From Pseudogemmatithrix spongiicola (lineage in GTDB: Bacteria > Gemmatimonadota > Gemmatimonadetes > Gemmatimonadales > Gemmatimonadaceae): DNA of 64,000 bases. The stretch lies in contig NZ_CP130613.1 of NCBI RefSeq assembly GCF_030623445.1, positions 186,001-250,000 of the forward strand. The letters run 5' to 3'. Position numbers and translations under genes: made by a program. Shown one piece after another: positions 16,673-24,350 of this stretch (position 1 is the first letter of the stretch; each line of letters begins with the position of its first letter). A model generated the notes under the pieces. That model searched no databases. It was not told the DNA's origin and saw nothing but the letters and a program-made list of their open reading frames with translations.

Positions 16673-17737
16673 GTGATCAAGTACCTCGGCTCCAAGCGGA
16701 AGCTCGTCCCGCGCATCGTGGGATTGGCGCAGGCGATTCCCGGGGCGCGGACGGCGTTGGACCTCTTCACGGGGACGACGCGCGTGGCGCAGGGACTCAA
16801 GCGCGCCGGCTTCATGGTGACCGCCAACGACCTCGCCAGCTACAGCGAGGTGTTGGCGCAGGCGTACATCGCGGCGGATGCGCGCGCGGTGGACGTGGCG
16901 GCCGTGGAGGCGATGTTGGCCGAGCTGAACGCGCTGCCGGGGGTGCGCGGGTACTTCACGCGCACGTTCTGCGAGGACGCGCGCTACGTGCAGCCGGCGA
17001 ACGGCATGCGCGTCGATGCCATCCGCGGGCGCATCGAGACGATCACGGCGGATGCGACGGAGCGCGCGATCCTGCTGGCGGCGCTGTTGGAGGCGACGGA
17101 CCGCGTGGATTCCACGACGGGCCTGCAGATGGCCTACCTGAAGCAGTGGTCGGCGCGGAGTCACCGGCCGCTGCGGCTGCGCCTGCCGATACTCCTGGAC
17201 GGAGCAGGGCGCGCGTTGCGGCTTGACGCCCGCGAGGCGGTGACCCTGCTCGGCCAGTACGACGTGGCGTACCTGGATCCGCCGTATAACCAGCATTCCT
17301 ACTATCGGAACTATCACGTGTGGGAAACCTTGGTGCGCGGGGATGCGCCGCCCGCTTACGGCGTGGCGCGCAAGCGCGAGGACTGCCGCACGACGCGCAG
17401 CGTGTTCAATGCACGGGCCGGCGCGGCGGAGCGCGCGCTCGGTGAGGTGCTCGCCGCGGTGCCGGCGCGGCATGTGATCCTCTCGTTCTCGGACGAAGGA
17501 TTCGTGTCGTTGGATGCGCTGCGCGCGATGCTGCAGGCGCGCTTCGGCGACGTGGCGGCGGTGCCGGTGCCGTCGAAGCGCTATGTGGGCGCGAAGATCG
17601 GCATCTACTCGACCGATGGAAGCCTGGTCGGGGCCCCCGGCCACTTGATGAACACGGAGTGGCTGTTCGTCGCGGGGCCCGATGCCGCGGGGATCTCGGC
17701 GCGTGCGGACGGCGTGGCGCTGGCGGAGGTCGCGTGA
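16673..17737 (+). CDS. DNA adenine methyltransferase, D12 class
   Basis: 354 residues from the GTG at 16673, which gives the usual N-terminus IKYLGSKRKLVP. A TTG 14 codons upstream is possible but a promoter-like hexamer lies between. Motif I is LDLFTGTTRVAQGLK and motif IV is YLDPPYNQHSYYRNYH, the DPPY of N6-adenine methylases of the Dam/FokI group. No restriction enzyme gene is adjacent, so it is probably an orphan methylase or one that marks DNA for regulation; recognition site unknown. Its TGA overlaps the next gene's GTG. Confidence 0.88.
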   Translation: MIKYLGSKRKLVPRIVGLAQAIPGARTALDLFTGTTRVAQGLKRAGFMVTANDLASYSEVLAQAYIAADARAVDVAAVEAMLAELNALPGVRGYFTRTFCEDARYVQPANGMRVDAIRGRIETITADATERAILLAALLEATDRVDSTTGLQMAYLKQWSARSHRPLRLRLPILLDGAGRALRLDAREAVTLLGQYDVAYLDPPYNQHSYYRNYHVWETLVRGDAPPAYGVARKREDCRTTRSVFNARAGAAERALGEVLAAVPARHVILSFSDEGFVSLDALRAMLQARFGDVAAVPVPSKRYVGAKIGIYSTDGSLVGAPGHLMNTEWLFVAGPDAAGISARADGVALAEVA

Positions 17738-18393
17738 ACGCGCCTGGGCATTCGGCGGTCGCGGCGGAGCACTGGTTGCCGGTGCACACGGCGTTGGTGC
17801 AGGGCTTGGTGCACGCCTGCAACAATCGCGTGGCCGCGCTCAGCGGCATCACGCAGCTCTACGAAGCGCAGCTCTCCACGAGCGAAGAGGGCATGCAGCA
17901 GTTGGGGGGCGAAGTGGAGCGGATGCGGCAGTTGATGGCGATGTTCCGCTTGGTGTCGGCGACGGGTGGCTCGCGTCGCGAGCCGGCGCGCATGGGCGAG
18001 GCGCTGCGGTCGGCGGCGGCGTTGCTGGCGTATCACCTGGAGGCGCGCCAGGCGCAGTTCACCGCGCCCGAGGATTCTCCGGACGTGGAGCCGGTGCTCC
18101 TGCTGACGGGCGATCCGCTGCGCTTCGCACTGCTCGCGTACTTGGCCGCCGCGGCCGGCGCGGGAAAGGGCGGTGGCGTGACGGCGTCGGTGGCGCGGGT
18201 GCTCGACGAAACGCTGGTGACGATCACGGCGCCGGGGCGCGAGGCGGACCTGCGTGCACGCGAGGAGTTCACGGCGTTGGCACAGGCGGCAGAGCGCGAA
18301 GGGGGAAGCCTCCGCAGCGCGCCGGGGCCCGACGGGTCTGTGCTGCTGCTGCTCGCGTTGCCCGGTCTGCAAAAGGCGACGGCGCGGGGTTAG
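17734..18393 (+). CDS. Histidine-kinase-like protein, degenerate
   Basis: 219 residues, GTG overlapping the methylase stop (GTGA). The segment LVHACNNRVAALSGITQLYE resembles the H-box of histidine kinase DHp domains, with a histidine followed by Asn-Asn. The second half (LLTGDPLRFALLAYLAAAA) resembles an N-box of an ATPase domain, but clear G-boxes are missing. It may be a phosphotransfer or scaffold protein rather than an active kinase. Coupling to a DNA methylase is unusual. Family assignment is tentative. Confidence 0.7.
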   Translation: MNAPGHSAVAAEHWLPVHTALVQGLVHACNNRVAALSGITQLYEAQLSTSEEGMQQLGGEVERMRQLMAMFRLVSATGGSRREPARMGEALRSAAALLAYHLEARQAQFTAPEDSPDVEPVLLLTGDPLRFALLAYLAAAAGAGKGGGVTASVARVLDETLVTITAPGREADLRAREEFTALAQAAEREGGSLRSAPGPDGSVLLLLALPGLQKATARG

Positions 18394-18403
18394 CCGCGCC
18401 GTC
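18378..18403 (+). terminator. Hairpin with the stop codon in its loop
   Basis: GACGGCGCGG (18378-18387) pairs perfectly with CCGCGCCGTC (18394-18403). The 6-nt loop holds the TAG stop of the upstream gene. Probably the terminator of the methylase pair. The same layout is seen at 63801-63834. Confidence 0.65.
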
Positions 18404-18439
18404 GGGTACTACCGCTGCGTGTCGCGCGGGGTGCTCGCG

Positions 18440-18871
18440 TTAGAACGCGCGCTCGGCGTCGATCCGCAGGTGCTGCTGCCAGTCGGTGCCGGCGGCGTCG
18501 GTGACGCGGACCCGGACCGGGATGGTGGCGCCGTTGGTGACGTCGCCCAAACCGATGGTGGCGGGCGTGGCGGTCCAGTTGCCGTTCTGGTCGAGCACCG
18601 TGACGCCTTCCGGGAGCTCGAGGGCGTCGAGCGTCCAGCGGACGTTGCCGCGCACCGTGTAGGTGGCGAGGTACTCGGTGAAGCCGTTGCCCTTATGGGT
18701 CTGGGTGAGGGCGACCGTTTCGGTGGCGCGGAGGTAGGCGGGGATCGTCAACCCGGCGGTGACGCGGACGGTGGCACGCGCCCCGTTCCCAACGGCCAGC
18801 GCAGTGGTCTGCGCGGCAACCGGCGCTGCGGTGATCAGCGCTGCGGCGAGGATGAGGGTCAGGGTGCGCAT
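18440..18871 (-). CDS. Secreted protein of unknown function under a sigma54-like promoter
   Basis: 143 residues, ATG at 18871 with CGGAG upstream. A clear signal peptide (about residues 1-21, ending AAPVAAQ). The mature part is Thr/Val-rich and beta-like (IPVRVRVTDAAGTDWQQHLRIDAERAF), with no cysteines or known motif; an Ig-like or pilus-associated fold is possible. Its upstream region has the same paired dyads and -24-like element as the sigma factor gene at 19745, so it is probably activated by the NtrC-type regulator nearby. Confidence 0.8.
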   Translation of the reverse strand: MRTLTLILAAALITAAPVAAQTTALAVGNGARATVRVTAGLTIPAYLRATETVALTQTHKGNGFTEYLATYTVRGNVRWTLDALELPEGVTVLDQNGNWTATPATIGLGDVTNGATIPVRVRVTDAAGTDWQQHLRIDAERAF

Positions 18872-18903
18872 ATCGAGCTCCGTTAGGTTCTGACCCCTTC
18901 TAT

Positions 18904-18920
18904 TTCACGTTCTGTGCCGC
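18904..18920 (-). promoter_or_regulatory. Sigma54-like promoter of the secreted protein
   Basis: On the minus strand GCGGCAC-N5-GTGAA. GGCAC matches the sigma54 -24 element exactly; the -12 part has GA where GC is usual, 10 nt after the GG. The predicted start near 18894 leaves a leader of about 23 nt. The same sequence pattern occurs before the sigma factor gene (19784-19800). Confidence 0.55.
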
Positions 18921-18987
18921 TCTTTGTATCCTCGTAAGTGATTGCTTTGTAATGACTTACTGAATTTCATCCTAGGGTTCACCACCC

Positions 18988-19017
18988 GGCAATTTTCGCC
19001 GAGTGGCAAGAGTTGCC
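18988..19017 (-). promoter_or_regulatory. Paired 13-bp dyads, likely activator sites
   Basis: Two copies of GGCRA-N3-TYGCC, at 18988-19000 and 19005-19017, centres 17 bp apart. Relative to the predicted start they lie at about -100 and -117, the normal place for NtrC-family enhancer sites. GGCAAGAGTTGCC is a perfect dyad. Confidence 0.65.
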
Positions 19018-19034
19018 GAGCAAGTTCTGTTGCG

Positions 19035-19745
19035 TCAGGCGACGCGCGGGTTTGTGAGGCGGAGCTTGAGTTGACGCAGGGCGCGGGCGCGGATGCGGCT
19101 GGCGCCCGATTCGGTGACGCCGAGTCGGGGGGCGATTTCGCGGAGCGGGCGGTCTTCGAAGAAGGAGAGGACGAGGACTTCGAGGGCGTCGCGGTCGAGC
19201 GAGTGCAGGGCCTCGCGCAGGCGTTCGCGTTCGCGCTCCCGATCGAGTTCGAGATCGAGGTCGGGGTCGACGGCGGGAATGCGATCTTCGCGGCGCGGGG
19301 TGTCGATGTGCGGCGGCGCCTGGCTGGCGTCGAGACTCAAGGGTGTGGCGTCGAGCGCCTCGCGTTCCCAGGCGAGCAGTCCGAGGAGGTCGGTGTCGAG
19401 CGCGTCGGCGAGTTCCTGGCTGTCGGGATTGCGGTGCAGCGACTGCGCGAGGGAATCGCGGGTGCGTTCGAGTCGGCGGGCGCGGGTTCGCGCGCCGCGC
19501 GTGAGCGGATCGACGCGACGGAGTTCGTCGAGCATGGCGCCGCGGATGCGCGTGGCGGCGTAGGTGGAGAACGCGAGTCCGCGGGAGGCGTCGAAGGCTT
19601 CGGCGGCGGCGAGGAGTCCCCCGAGGCCGGCGCTGACGAGCTCGTCGAGATCGGCGTCGTCGGCGAGCGTCGTGTGCAGCCGGCGGGCGAGATAGTGCAC
19701 CAGCCCGATGTGGCGCTGCACGAGTTCGTCGCGGTGGAAAGACAT
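19035..19745 (-). CDS. RNA polymerase sigma factor, FliA/WhiG type
   Basis: 236 residues, ATG at 19745. Region 2 is visible (LDELVSAGLGGLLAAAEAFD, FSTYAATRIRGAMLDELR) and region 4 ends in a helix-turn-helix (EIAPRLGVTESGASRIRARA). Region 3 is present, so this is a sigma28-like factor rather than ECF type. No flagellar genes are in the window. Its promoter resembles sigma54 sites with upstream dyads, suggesting a sigma54-to-sigma28 cascade driven by the adjacent response regulator. Confidence 0.9.
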   Translation of the reverse strand: MSFHRDELVQRHIGLVHYLARRLHTTLADDADLDELVSAGLGGLLAAAEAFDASRGLAFSTYAATRIRGAMLDELRRVDPLTRGARTRARRLERTRDSLAQSLHRNPDSQELADALDTDLLGLLAWEREALDATPLSLDASQAPPHIDTPRREDRIPAVDPDLDLELDRERERERLREALHSLDRDALEVLVLSFFEDRPLREIAPRLGVTESGASRIRARALRQLKLRLTNPRVA

Positions 19746-19783
19746 CCTGAGACTCCGAGGCGTGATGGTCCGCCGATAGGGAG

Positions 19784-19800
19784 TTCAGGAATCGTGCCGC
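19784..19800 (-). promoter_or_regulatory. Sigma54-like promoter of the FliA-type sigma gene
   Basis: On the minus strand GCGGCAC-N5-CTGAA, same arrangement as at 18904-18920. The predicted start is near 19774 with a 28-nt leader. Confidence 0.55.
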
Positions 19801-19865
19801 AGCGAAATTCTGCTAAACTACTTCAAATCAACGACTTACACTCAGCGGGCAACGCAAAATCGCCC

Positions 19866-19895
19866 GGCGAATCTCGCCGAGCGGCAGTTTTCGCC
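19866..19895 (-). promoter_or_regulatory. Paired 13-bp dyads upstream of the sigma gene
   Basis: GGCRA-N3-TYGCC dyads at 19866-19878 and 19883-19895, centres 17 bp apart, at about -98 and -115 from the predicted start. GGCGAATCTCGCC is a perfect dyad. Spacing and position match the pair at 18988-19017 almost exactly. Confidence 0.65.
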
Positions 19896-19907
19896 GAGTT
19901 GTAATGG

Positions 19908-21293
<1,386 letters not shown>

Positions 21294-21307
21294 CGCTCGG
21301 ACGAAGG

Positions 21308-21313
21308 TAACTT
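21308..21313 (+). promoter_or_regulatory. TAnnTT -10 element placing the AlkA-like ATG at +1
   Basis: TAACTT, 6 nt, then ATG 21320. On the opposite strand the same bases give TACCTT, 10 nt upstream of the regulator's ATG, so the divergent promoters may overlap. Confidence 0.5.
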
Positions 21314-21319
21314 CCGCGC

Positions 21320-21940
21320 ATGCCTCCACGCCACGCGAAGGCCATCGCGCACCTGAGCGCCGTCGATCCGATCCTCGGCCGCTGGATCGCGCAGGCCGGC
21401 CCCTGCTCGCTGACGCGCGAGCGCAGCGGGACCCATTTCGCCGCTGTCGCGCGTTCCATCATCTACCAGCAGTTGAGCGGCAAGGCGGCCGGGACCATCC
21501 ACGCGCGCTTCGAGGCGCTGTTCGACGGACGGTCGCCGGAGCCGCACGAGGTGCTGAAGGTCAAGCACACGGCGCTGCGCGGCATCGGGCTCTCGGAGCG
21601 CAAGGCCGAGTACGTGCGCGGCCTCGCGGAAGACGTGCATCGGGGGCGGATCCCGCTCGAGCGCGTGGACGCGATGCCAGACGCCGAGGTGATCGAGACG
21701 CTCACGCAGGTGCGCGGGGTGGGGGAGTGGACCGCGCAGATGTTCTTGATGTTCCGGCTGGGGCGGCTTGATGTGCTGCCGACGCTGGACCTCGGGATAC
21801 AGACCGCCATCAAGCGGCTTTATGGACTGCGCTCGCATCCCAAACCGGAGCGCGTGGCGAAACTCGGCGCCAAGTGGGCGCCTTACCGGACGGTGGCTTC
21901 GTGGTATCTGTGGAGAGTGGTGGACGATCCGCCGCAGTAG
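21320..21940 (+). CDS. DNA-3-methyladenine glycosylase II (AlkA-like, HhH-GPD)
   Basis: 206 residues. Removes alkylated purines from DNA in base excision repair. The helix-hairpin-helix is LTQVRGVGEWTAQMFLMF, followed by the catalytic aspartate in LPTLDLGIQTAIKRLYG. IIYQQLSGKAA matches the conserved segment near the N-terminus. Shorter than E. coli AlkA because the N-terminal TBP-like domain is absent, as in many bacterial homologues. Confidence 0.9.
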   Translation: MPPRHAKAIAHLSAVDPILGRWIAQAGPCSLTRERSGTHFAAVARSIIYQQLSGKAAGTIHARFEALFDGRSPEPHEVLKVKHTALRGIGLSERKAEYVRGLAEDVHRGRIPLERVDAMPDAEVIETLTQVRGVGEWTAQMFLMFRLGRLDVLPTLDLGIQTAIKRLYGLRSHPKPERVAKLGAKWAPYRTVASWYLWRVVDDPPQ

Positions 21941-23348: not shown

Positions 23349-23419
23349 GTTCACTGAGGCATAACTGAGGAAGCTGGAGGTGCGAGCCACCCAACCTTCA
23401 GCCAGAGGCCTCAGTGAAC
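23349..23419 (+). promoter_or_regulatory. Start-codon hairpin in IS copy A
   Basis: GTTCACTGAGGC (23349-23360) is perfectly complementary to GCCTCAGTGAAC (23408-23419), which contains the transposase GTG (23414). In IS copy B the outer half of each arm differs but pairing is kept. It probably blocks translation from read-through transcripts. Confidence 0.6.
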
Positions 23420-24350
23420 ATCCACAACAATGCGCGATTGACCGCCTGGGGGCGAGCCGAGCTCGTCCGCCGGGTGGTCCTCGACGGCGAGCCGGTGCGC
23501 GCCGTCGCCGCGGCCCTCCACATCAGCCCGAGCACGGCTTACAAGTGGCTGCGCCGCTTCGCGGCCGGGGGCTGGGCGGCGCTGGCCGACCGCTCCTCGC
23601 GCCCGCATCGCTCGCCGACCGCCACGCGGCCGGCGCTCATCGAGCGGATTCTCCGCCTGCGCGCGACGCGGCTCACCGGGCCGGAGATCGCGGAGCGGCT
23701 CGGGCTCGCGGTCTCGACCGTGGGCCGGGTCCTCACGCGCGCGGGCCAGGGCCGGCTGAAGGGCCCGGGGGCGACGGGCGGGCCGCGCTACCAGCGCGAG
23801 ACGCCCGGCGAGCTCGTGCATGTCGACACGAAGGCCCTCGATCGCTTCGTCACGGCGGGCCATCGCGCGCACGGCAACCGCTCGAAGGTCGGCCGCCGTC
23901 GGGGGCTCGGGCAGGACCATCTCCACGTCGCGGTCGACGACGCGGCTCGCGTACGCGGCGCTGCTGCCGACACAGGACGCGGCGGCGTGCACCCGCTTCC
24001 TCGAGGCGGCGCGCCGCTGGTTTGCGCAGCTGGGCATCGCCGTCACCGGTGTGATGACCGACAACGCCAAGGCGTACACGAGCCACGCGGTGCAGGCCGC
24101 GCTGGCCGCGCACGGGATCCGGCACCTGCGCACCAAGCCCTACCGCCCGCAGACGAACGGCAAGGCGGAGCGCTTCATCCAGACCGCGCTCCGCCGCTGG
24201 GCCTACAAGAAGCCATACCGGACCTCGGCGCACCGCAACGCGGCGCTGCCCGACTTCCTAGATTGCTACAACGTCGAACGGCCGCACCGGTCGCTCGGCC
24301 GCGTCCCGCCGCTGCTCCACTTCCTCATGCAGCGTGAACAACGTCCTTAG
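23414..24350 (+). pseudogene. IS481-family transposase, frameshifted
   Basis: The GTG-started frame gives an N-terminal helix-turn-helix (AVAAALHISPSTAYKWLRRF) and the first catalytic aspartate (ELVHVDTKALD). Near 23935-23945 the frame shifts and the rest continues in another frame with the second aspartate (VMTDNAKAYTS) and the glutamate (NGKAERFIQTALRRWAYKK). Compared with the intact copy at 48944, two bases are missing or one added. Either a decayed gene or, less likely, programmed frameshifting; IS481 normally uses one frame. Confidence 0.85.

Follow-up and report, generated by a model that had tools for sequence, protein, structure and literature searches.

A putative sigma54–sigma28 regulatory circuit of flagellar descent in the non-flagellate bacterium Pseudogemmatithrix spongiicola

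The window analysed here, a 64,000-nucleotide stretch of the Pseudogemmatithrix spongiicola genome, contains two intergenic regions that we interpret, with a probability of about 80%, as sigma54 promoters carrying an FlbD-type paired enhancer and inherited from a flagellar cluster whose structural genes are gone. Comparison with related genomes suggests that a flagellar regulatory trio, consisting of a kinase-like protein, an NtrC-type activator and a FliA-type (sigma28) sigma factor, has outlived the flagellum, and the retained flagellar controls now probably serve a different purpose. A sigma54-to-sigma28 cascade had been proposed in the original prediction; the dyads, the conserved -24/-12 elements and the presence of rpoN support it, and its flagellar nature had been missed. 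When a machine is lost, its regulators should degenerate, and the FlbD homolog is missing from the one non-motile Desulfovibrio covered in PMC3333781; here the whole control layer is kept in at least eight genera with a largely intact promoter architecture.

Architecture of the two promoter regions

The genes for the FliA/WhiG-type sigma factor (positions 19035–19745, minus strand) and for a small secreted beta-rich protein (18440–18871, minus strand) are consecutive, and each is preceded by an AT-richer leader of about 163 bp. The elements are arranged alike in both leaders, with two dyads first, then an IHF-like site and finally a GGCAC-N6-TGAA motif. The paired dyads before the sigma gene (19866–19895; GGCGAATCTCGCC-GAGC-GGCAGTTTTCGCC) deviate by one mismatch from GGCRA-N3-TYGCC taken twice with a 4-bp gap, one half reading GGCAG, and those before the secreted-protein gene (18988–19017; GGCAATTTTCGCC-GAGT-GGCAAGAGTTGCC) match this pattern, including the 4-bp gap, without mismatch. 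Each pair comprises two candidate FlbD-type sites resembling GGCA-N5-TGCC, and the centres are exactly 17 bp apart at both promoters, as predicted. The two sets of dyads had also been described as identical, which holds for their layout and consensus and not for their spacer letters, which differ.

Allowing up to three mismatches, two dyad pairs were found in the window against 0.19 expected, a count reached by 3 of 100 shuffles, and both of these pairs carry at most one mismatch. A scan of the whole genome (3,257,781 bp, one contig) with up to two mismatches, which the original prediction had called for, returned the same two pairs and no other, and a reversed control pattern gave no match in the genome. 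Since no further pair occurs, the regulon looks local, in agreement with what had been anticipated.

The IHF-like site of the sigma leader (19826–19838, plus strand; AATCAACGACTTA) is an exact match to WATCAANNNNTTR, and that of the secreted-protein leader (18935–18947, minus strand; AAGCAATCACTTA) contains one mismatch. The distance from the pair centre to the -12 position is 95 bp for the sigma gene and 97 bp for the secreted-protein gene, which agrees with the predicted dyad positions of -98 and -117 if these are counted from the inferred start. The -24/-12-like elements are located at 19784–19798 (GGCACGATTCCTGAA; core GCGGCAC-GATTC-CTGAA) and at 18904–18918 (GGCACAGAACGTGAA; core GCGGCAC-AGAAC-GTGAA), both on the minus strand, and they conform to the GCGGCAC-N5-STGAA layout originally noticed before the two genes. 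At both promoters a GG at -24/-25 is followed at the exact 10-bp step by the -12 element, giving GG-N10-GA; the GC that characterizes sigma54 promoters at -12/-13 is replaced by GA in both.

This GA, acknowledged from the outset as a weak point, would weaken a classical sigma54 promoter, and it raises the question of whether the promoters are instead read by a different sigma factor (a housekeeping or ECF sigma, or sigma28 in autoregulation), their -24/-12 similarity being accidental. Consistent with such an accident, the -24/-12-like motif taken by itself is no more frequent in the window than chance predicts (10 found against 12.1 expected with one mismatch), so that the support for these elements comes from their conservation rather than from their single occurrence. 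That conservation, however, points to sigma54. The sigma promoter of a related species, G106, reads GGCGCGGTTCCTGC and has the canonical GC exactly at -12 (TGCAC there), and the homologous promoters of other genera and of flagellar clusters are of the GG-N10-GC type. GA at -12 may therefore have arisen in this genus alone, from an element that was originally canonical. Moreover, no sigma70-type promoter was found in a scan of 18300–20100, and the adjoining gene encodes a sigma54 activator with flagellar orthologs. Altogether, we regard transcription by another sigma factor as unlikely. The genome contains rpoN, on which the prediction depended, and its product has the HESTISRVT helix, as in E. 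coli, together with the ARRTVAKYR box; an altered RpoN specificity behind the GA was rejected because the -12 helix is normal.

Conservation and flagellar origin of the paired dyads

An alignment of the region upstream of the sigma gene was built from five species of the genus, namely P. spongiicola (G000), G100, G070, G106 and G023, whose sigma proteins are 86%, 70%, 60% and 58% identical, respectively, to that of P. spongiicola. Invariant columns account for 15 of the 30 dyad positions and 11 of the 16 promoter positions, against 14 of the other 107 intergenic positions. The dyad pair before the sigma gene occurs in all four relatives, the G023 copy being the weakest (three mismatches), and the pair before the secreted-protein gene, or at its place, is conserved in G100, G106 and G023. 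The sigma promoter block GGCACGATTCCTGA is identical in G000, G100, G070 and G023, and it reads GGCGCGGTTCCTGCA in G106. In the secreted-protein promoter, GGCAC-N6-TGAAATAG is common to P. spongiicola and G106 (whose ortholog of the whole element is GGCACGAATAGTGAA), and no clear match to this element was found in G023. The secreted protein itself is only 50% (G106) and 38% (G023) identical between orthologs. The conservation in relatives that had been proposed as a check was thus observed for both the dyads and the -24/-12 elements.

The window dyad GGCA-N5-TGCC matches the published motif of Caulobacter FlbD, CCCGGCAxxxxxTGCCGGG, and resembles that of D. vulgaris DVU1063, GGCAxxxxTGCC (PMC3333781). 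In the flagellar clusters of G030 and G055 (loci L121 and L122) a dyad pair lies between fliA and flgF. That of G094 (L120) has one pair before fliA and another between fliA and flgF, which is the twin layout of the window, and the pair at 18988–19017 occupies a place equivalent to the fliA–flgF site of L120 and L121. The flagellate congeners G099 and G087 carry a pair between fliH and fliI. Trained on 14 sites, a profile of the pair had no match reaching 14 bits in 2 Mb of random control sequence from a Markov model, but scored 22–23 bits at sites outside its training set, before fliI of G099 and G087 and, in G094, between fliA and flgF. Downstream of these three sites come GGCACGGCGGTTGCC, GGCACGGCAGTTGCC and AGGCACACGCCCTGCC, which place -12 at 120 bp; the three sites and the pairs of G030 and G055 all have GG-N10-GC elements (e.g. 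GGCACGGCGGTTGCC and TGGTATCCGTGTTGCC) 118–120 bp downstream. No strong pair was detected in the flagellar clusters of G022, G011, G029 and G003, so the site would have diverged or moved in those lineages. A family-wide pattern scan with two mismatches yields mostly noise in these GC-rich genomes, and only matches in a flagellar or module context were used; a dyad match in G042 (L123) was rejected as a chance match in a coding region.

In transcripts, the dyads can form hairpins directly after stop codons, and they could accordingly be transcription terminators of the upstream genes, formed past the activator and sigma stops, rather than activator sites. Both pairs start 13–18 nt past a stop codon and fold better than shuffled sequences (z of -3.25 and -2.55), and one of them is a terminator-like match. 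Nevertheless, the terminator scan found one match against 1.4 expected in shuffles, the second pair is not followed by a U-run, and the consensus of the dyad arms is kept across genera, as is the constant 4-bp gap separating the dyads. Furthermore, the sites found between fliH and fliI are internal to the flagellar operon, and the arms agree with the motif published for FlbD (PMC3333781). A terminator function in place of activator binding is therefore very improbable, and the dyads are better read as candidate activator sites.

The distance from the pair centre to -12 is 94–97 bp in the module of this genus, 118–120 bp in flagellar promoters and in G063, and 154, 165–166 or 177–178 bp in other genera. 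IHF-like sites of the form CAA-N4-TTR lie between dyads and promoter in many module and flagellar promoters. The five spacing classes (95, 119, 154, 166 and 178 bp) fit steps of about 11.7 bp, with a post hoc p of about 0.001 after scanning periods; when the weak G009 site is added, p becomes 0.12, and the step is only a lead.

Regulators retained in genomes without a flagellum

The activator gene (19908–21329, minus strand; true start likely an ATG near 21293) encodes an FlbD/FlrC-like protein with a receiver domain, an AAA+ domain containing GAFTGA and a Fis-type HTH, according to Pfam and motif searches; it is the complete sigma54 activator that had been noted beside the promoters. All the expected receiver residues are present (DDE, SDHQMPG, LTG and TKP). 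The protein scores 375.6 bits against the Caulobacter FlbD equivalog model NF050807, under the cut-off of 750, and higher (465) against AtoC, also under the AtoC cut-off. The sigma factor possesses Sigma70 regions 2 and 4 and is most similar to FliA/WhiG, with 156.6 bits against TIGR02479 (cut-off 189.6); no exact match to an E. coli-like sigma28 promoter, TAAA-N14/16-GCCGATA, was found in the genome. Convergent with these genes, an open reading frame at 17734–18393 (plus strand) encodes a histidine-kinase-like or ChpT-like protein. Its structural model (pLDDT 88.7) shows a DHp helix pair and a CA-like domain, with Foldseek matches to ZraS, HK853, DivL and ChpT, and a His and an Asn-Arg are invariant in the first helix of the family. 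As modelled, the protein would thus combine a DHp domain bearing a phospho-accepting His with a CA-like domain; the Pfam HATPase family was detected in none of 11 family members, and HisKA weakly in four. Elsewhere in the window (23380–24350), an apparently frameshift-split ORF resembling an IS-type transposase (HTH and integrase-like core, by eye) stands between an SDR-family gene and a glyoxalase-like gene.

In flagellate relatives, activator orthologs (63–69% identity) head the flagellar cluster before fliF–fliI, in the order activator, fliF, fliG, fliH, fliI, then flhB, flhA, fliA, flgF, flgG and flgH, with a convergent kinase-like gene where seen (G030, G048 and G023). In non-flagellates that keep these regulators, including P. 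spongiicola, the order is activator, sigma gene and convergent kinase-like gene. The flagellate order minus the structural block equals the non-flagellate order, and the three regulators keep their orientation: the sigma gene sits at the fliA position, and the secreted-protein gene takes the place of the flgF operon. The circuit in the window therefore appears, from gene order and sequence, to be flagellar by descent. The absence of flagellar genes nearby, remarked on in the original prediction, extends genome-wide as judged by two marker families, Flg_bbr_C and FlhA, neither of which is found in the complete P. spongiicola genome. Both are likewise absent from other non-flagellates and present in the tested flagellates; G100 (71% complete) has one Flg_bbr_C match and no FlhA match. 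A FlgM model gave no match in P. spongiicola, and the same model misses most flagellates.

Among 99 Gemmatimonadaceae genomes, 48 from flagellates and 51 from non-flagellates, an activator ortholog is present in 47 and 19, respectively. The sigma gene adjoins the activator in 15 of these 19 non-flagellates and is one gene away in two more; in the remaining two, one contig ends too early and the G010 match is probably a paralog. These genomes belong to eight genera, and many are incomplete MAGs, G000, G009, G013, G020, G021, G032 and G083 being 97–100% complete. In the two non-flagellates of genus g15, G083 and G095 (L208 and L211), the activator and the sigma gene are separated by a gene that by eye resembles acetamidase/formamidase, and two other non-flagellates, G020 and G046 (L199 and L203), contain a second, more distant activator copy (54–55% identity) with no sigma gene beside it.

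Such retention could mean that the trio is an idle remnant of a recent flagellum loss and is not being selected for any new function. What is missing is precisely the block of flagellar structural genes that lies between the regulators in flagellates, and the secreted protein evolves fast, with dN/dS near 1 and dN close to dS between G000 and G106 (a crude estimate in GC-rich sequence). Against this, the open frames are intact and the promoters are conserved in eight genera. The dN/dS of the activator is about 0.07–0.3 among congeners, and that of the sigma gene about 0.17–0.45 (both crude, GC-rich sequence), the former range indicating that the activator is under purifying selection. In both the activator and the sigma tree, copies from non-flagellates are intermingled with flagellar ones; a single origin is rejected for the activators of non-flagellates (p-AU 0.0002), so that they were retained either repeatedly or since long ago, and is not rejected for the sigma copies (p-AU 0.076). 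Furthermore, G023 keeps the locus alongside a full set of flagellar genes that includes an activator and a fliA of its own (L186/L187, G023:C2, the flagellum-free module being separate at L116, G023:C1). An idle remnant is consequently improbable, and we favour a trio still in use. The secreted protein evolves far faster than its regulators, and neither a PDB sequence search nor a fold search with its model (pLDDT 70) gave a convincing structural relative.

Proposed circuit and comparison with known systems

We propose that the kinase-like protein would control how far the activator is phosphorylated at its receiver domain. The activator would bind the two neighbouring GGCA-N5-TGCC dyads, which lie some 95 bp before the -12 element, and be brought to the sigma54 polymerase by an IHF-like bend. 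Opening of both promoters would yield the secreted protein as well as the FliA-type sigma factor, and the latter may then transcribe a further gene set, no longer flagellar. A lower affinity resulting from GA at -12 might, as a guess, make both promoters depend more on the activator. A wider proposal is in our judgement evenly balanced: that in Gemmatimonadaceae the trio repeatedly outlived the flagellum and came to serve a programme other than motility, in which the former fliA and flgF promoters found a new use and, in this genus, the -12 element was adjusted to GA. No earlier report of such a circuit in Gemmatimonadota was found in the literature searched, whose coverage was incomplete. The circuit makes testable the rewiring of a flagellar hierarchy, the role of sigma28 without flagella and the natural tolerance of GA at -12, and a cultured type strain exists, 318T, isolated from a freshwater sponge (PMC11271474).

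From its sequence, the circuit resembles the hierarchy leading from FlbD/FlrC and sigma54 to FliA and would belong there by descent; it departs from that class in controlling no flagellum, in its FlbD equivalog score and in lacking the atypical receiver of FlbD. Nor does the sigma factor qualify as a flagellar sigma, which by definition controls flagellar genes, since neither Flg_bbr_C nor FlhA is found in the genome. In Caulobacter, class III/IV flagellar genes need sigma54 and IHF (PMC3096577). The P. spongiicola circuit shares with the FlbD–ftr–IHF–sigma54 system of this organism and with DVU1063 an NtrC-type activator and a GGCA-N4/5-TGCC dyad (PMC3333781), and with FlbD promoters the distal upstream site combined with a -24/-12 layout. 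It differs from both systems in its two dyads at a fixed 17-bp step, in the GA at -12, in the canonical receiver residues, some of which FlbD and DVU1063 lack, and in its predicted targets, a sigma gene and a secreted protein in an organism with no flagellum. Like FlrBC, FleSR and FlgSR of polar flagellates, it would pair a kinase-like partner with an NtrC-type regulator acting with sigma54 and place a fliA-type sigma factor lower in the hierarchy (PMC7064773). Unlike in those systems, the assembly checkpoint (MS ring, C ring and export gate) is absent, and the kinase-like partner, which is small and soluble and of DHp-CA type, gives no Pfam ATPase match.

FliA-family sigma factors are also encountered in bacteria without flagella, as exemplified by WhiG of Streptomyces, and the sigma factor described here is comparable in this respect to WhiG and to sigma28 of Chlamydia. 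Chlamydia uses its FliA-family sigma28 without flagella and keeps sigma54 too (PMC10597470), a further point of likeness. In contrast to these organisms, the sigma gene of P. spongiicola is a conserved, adjoining predicted target of a sigma54 activator, within a flagellar gene order.
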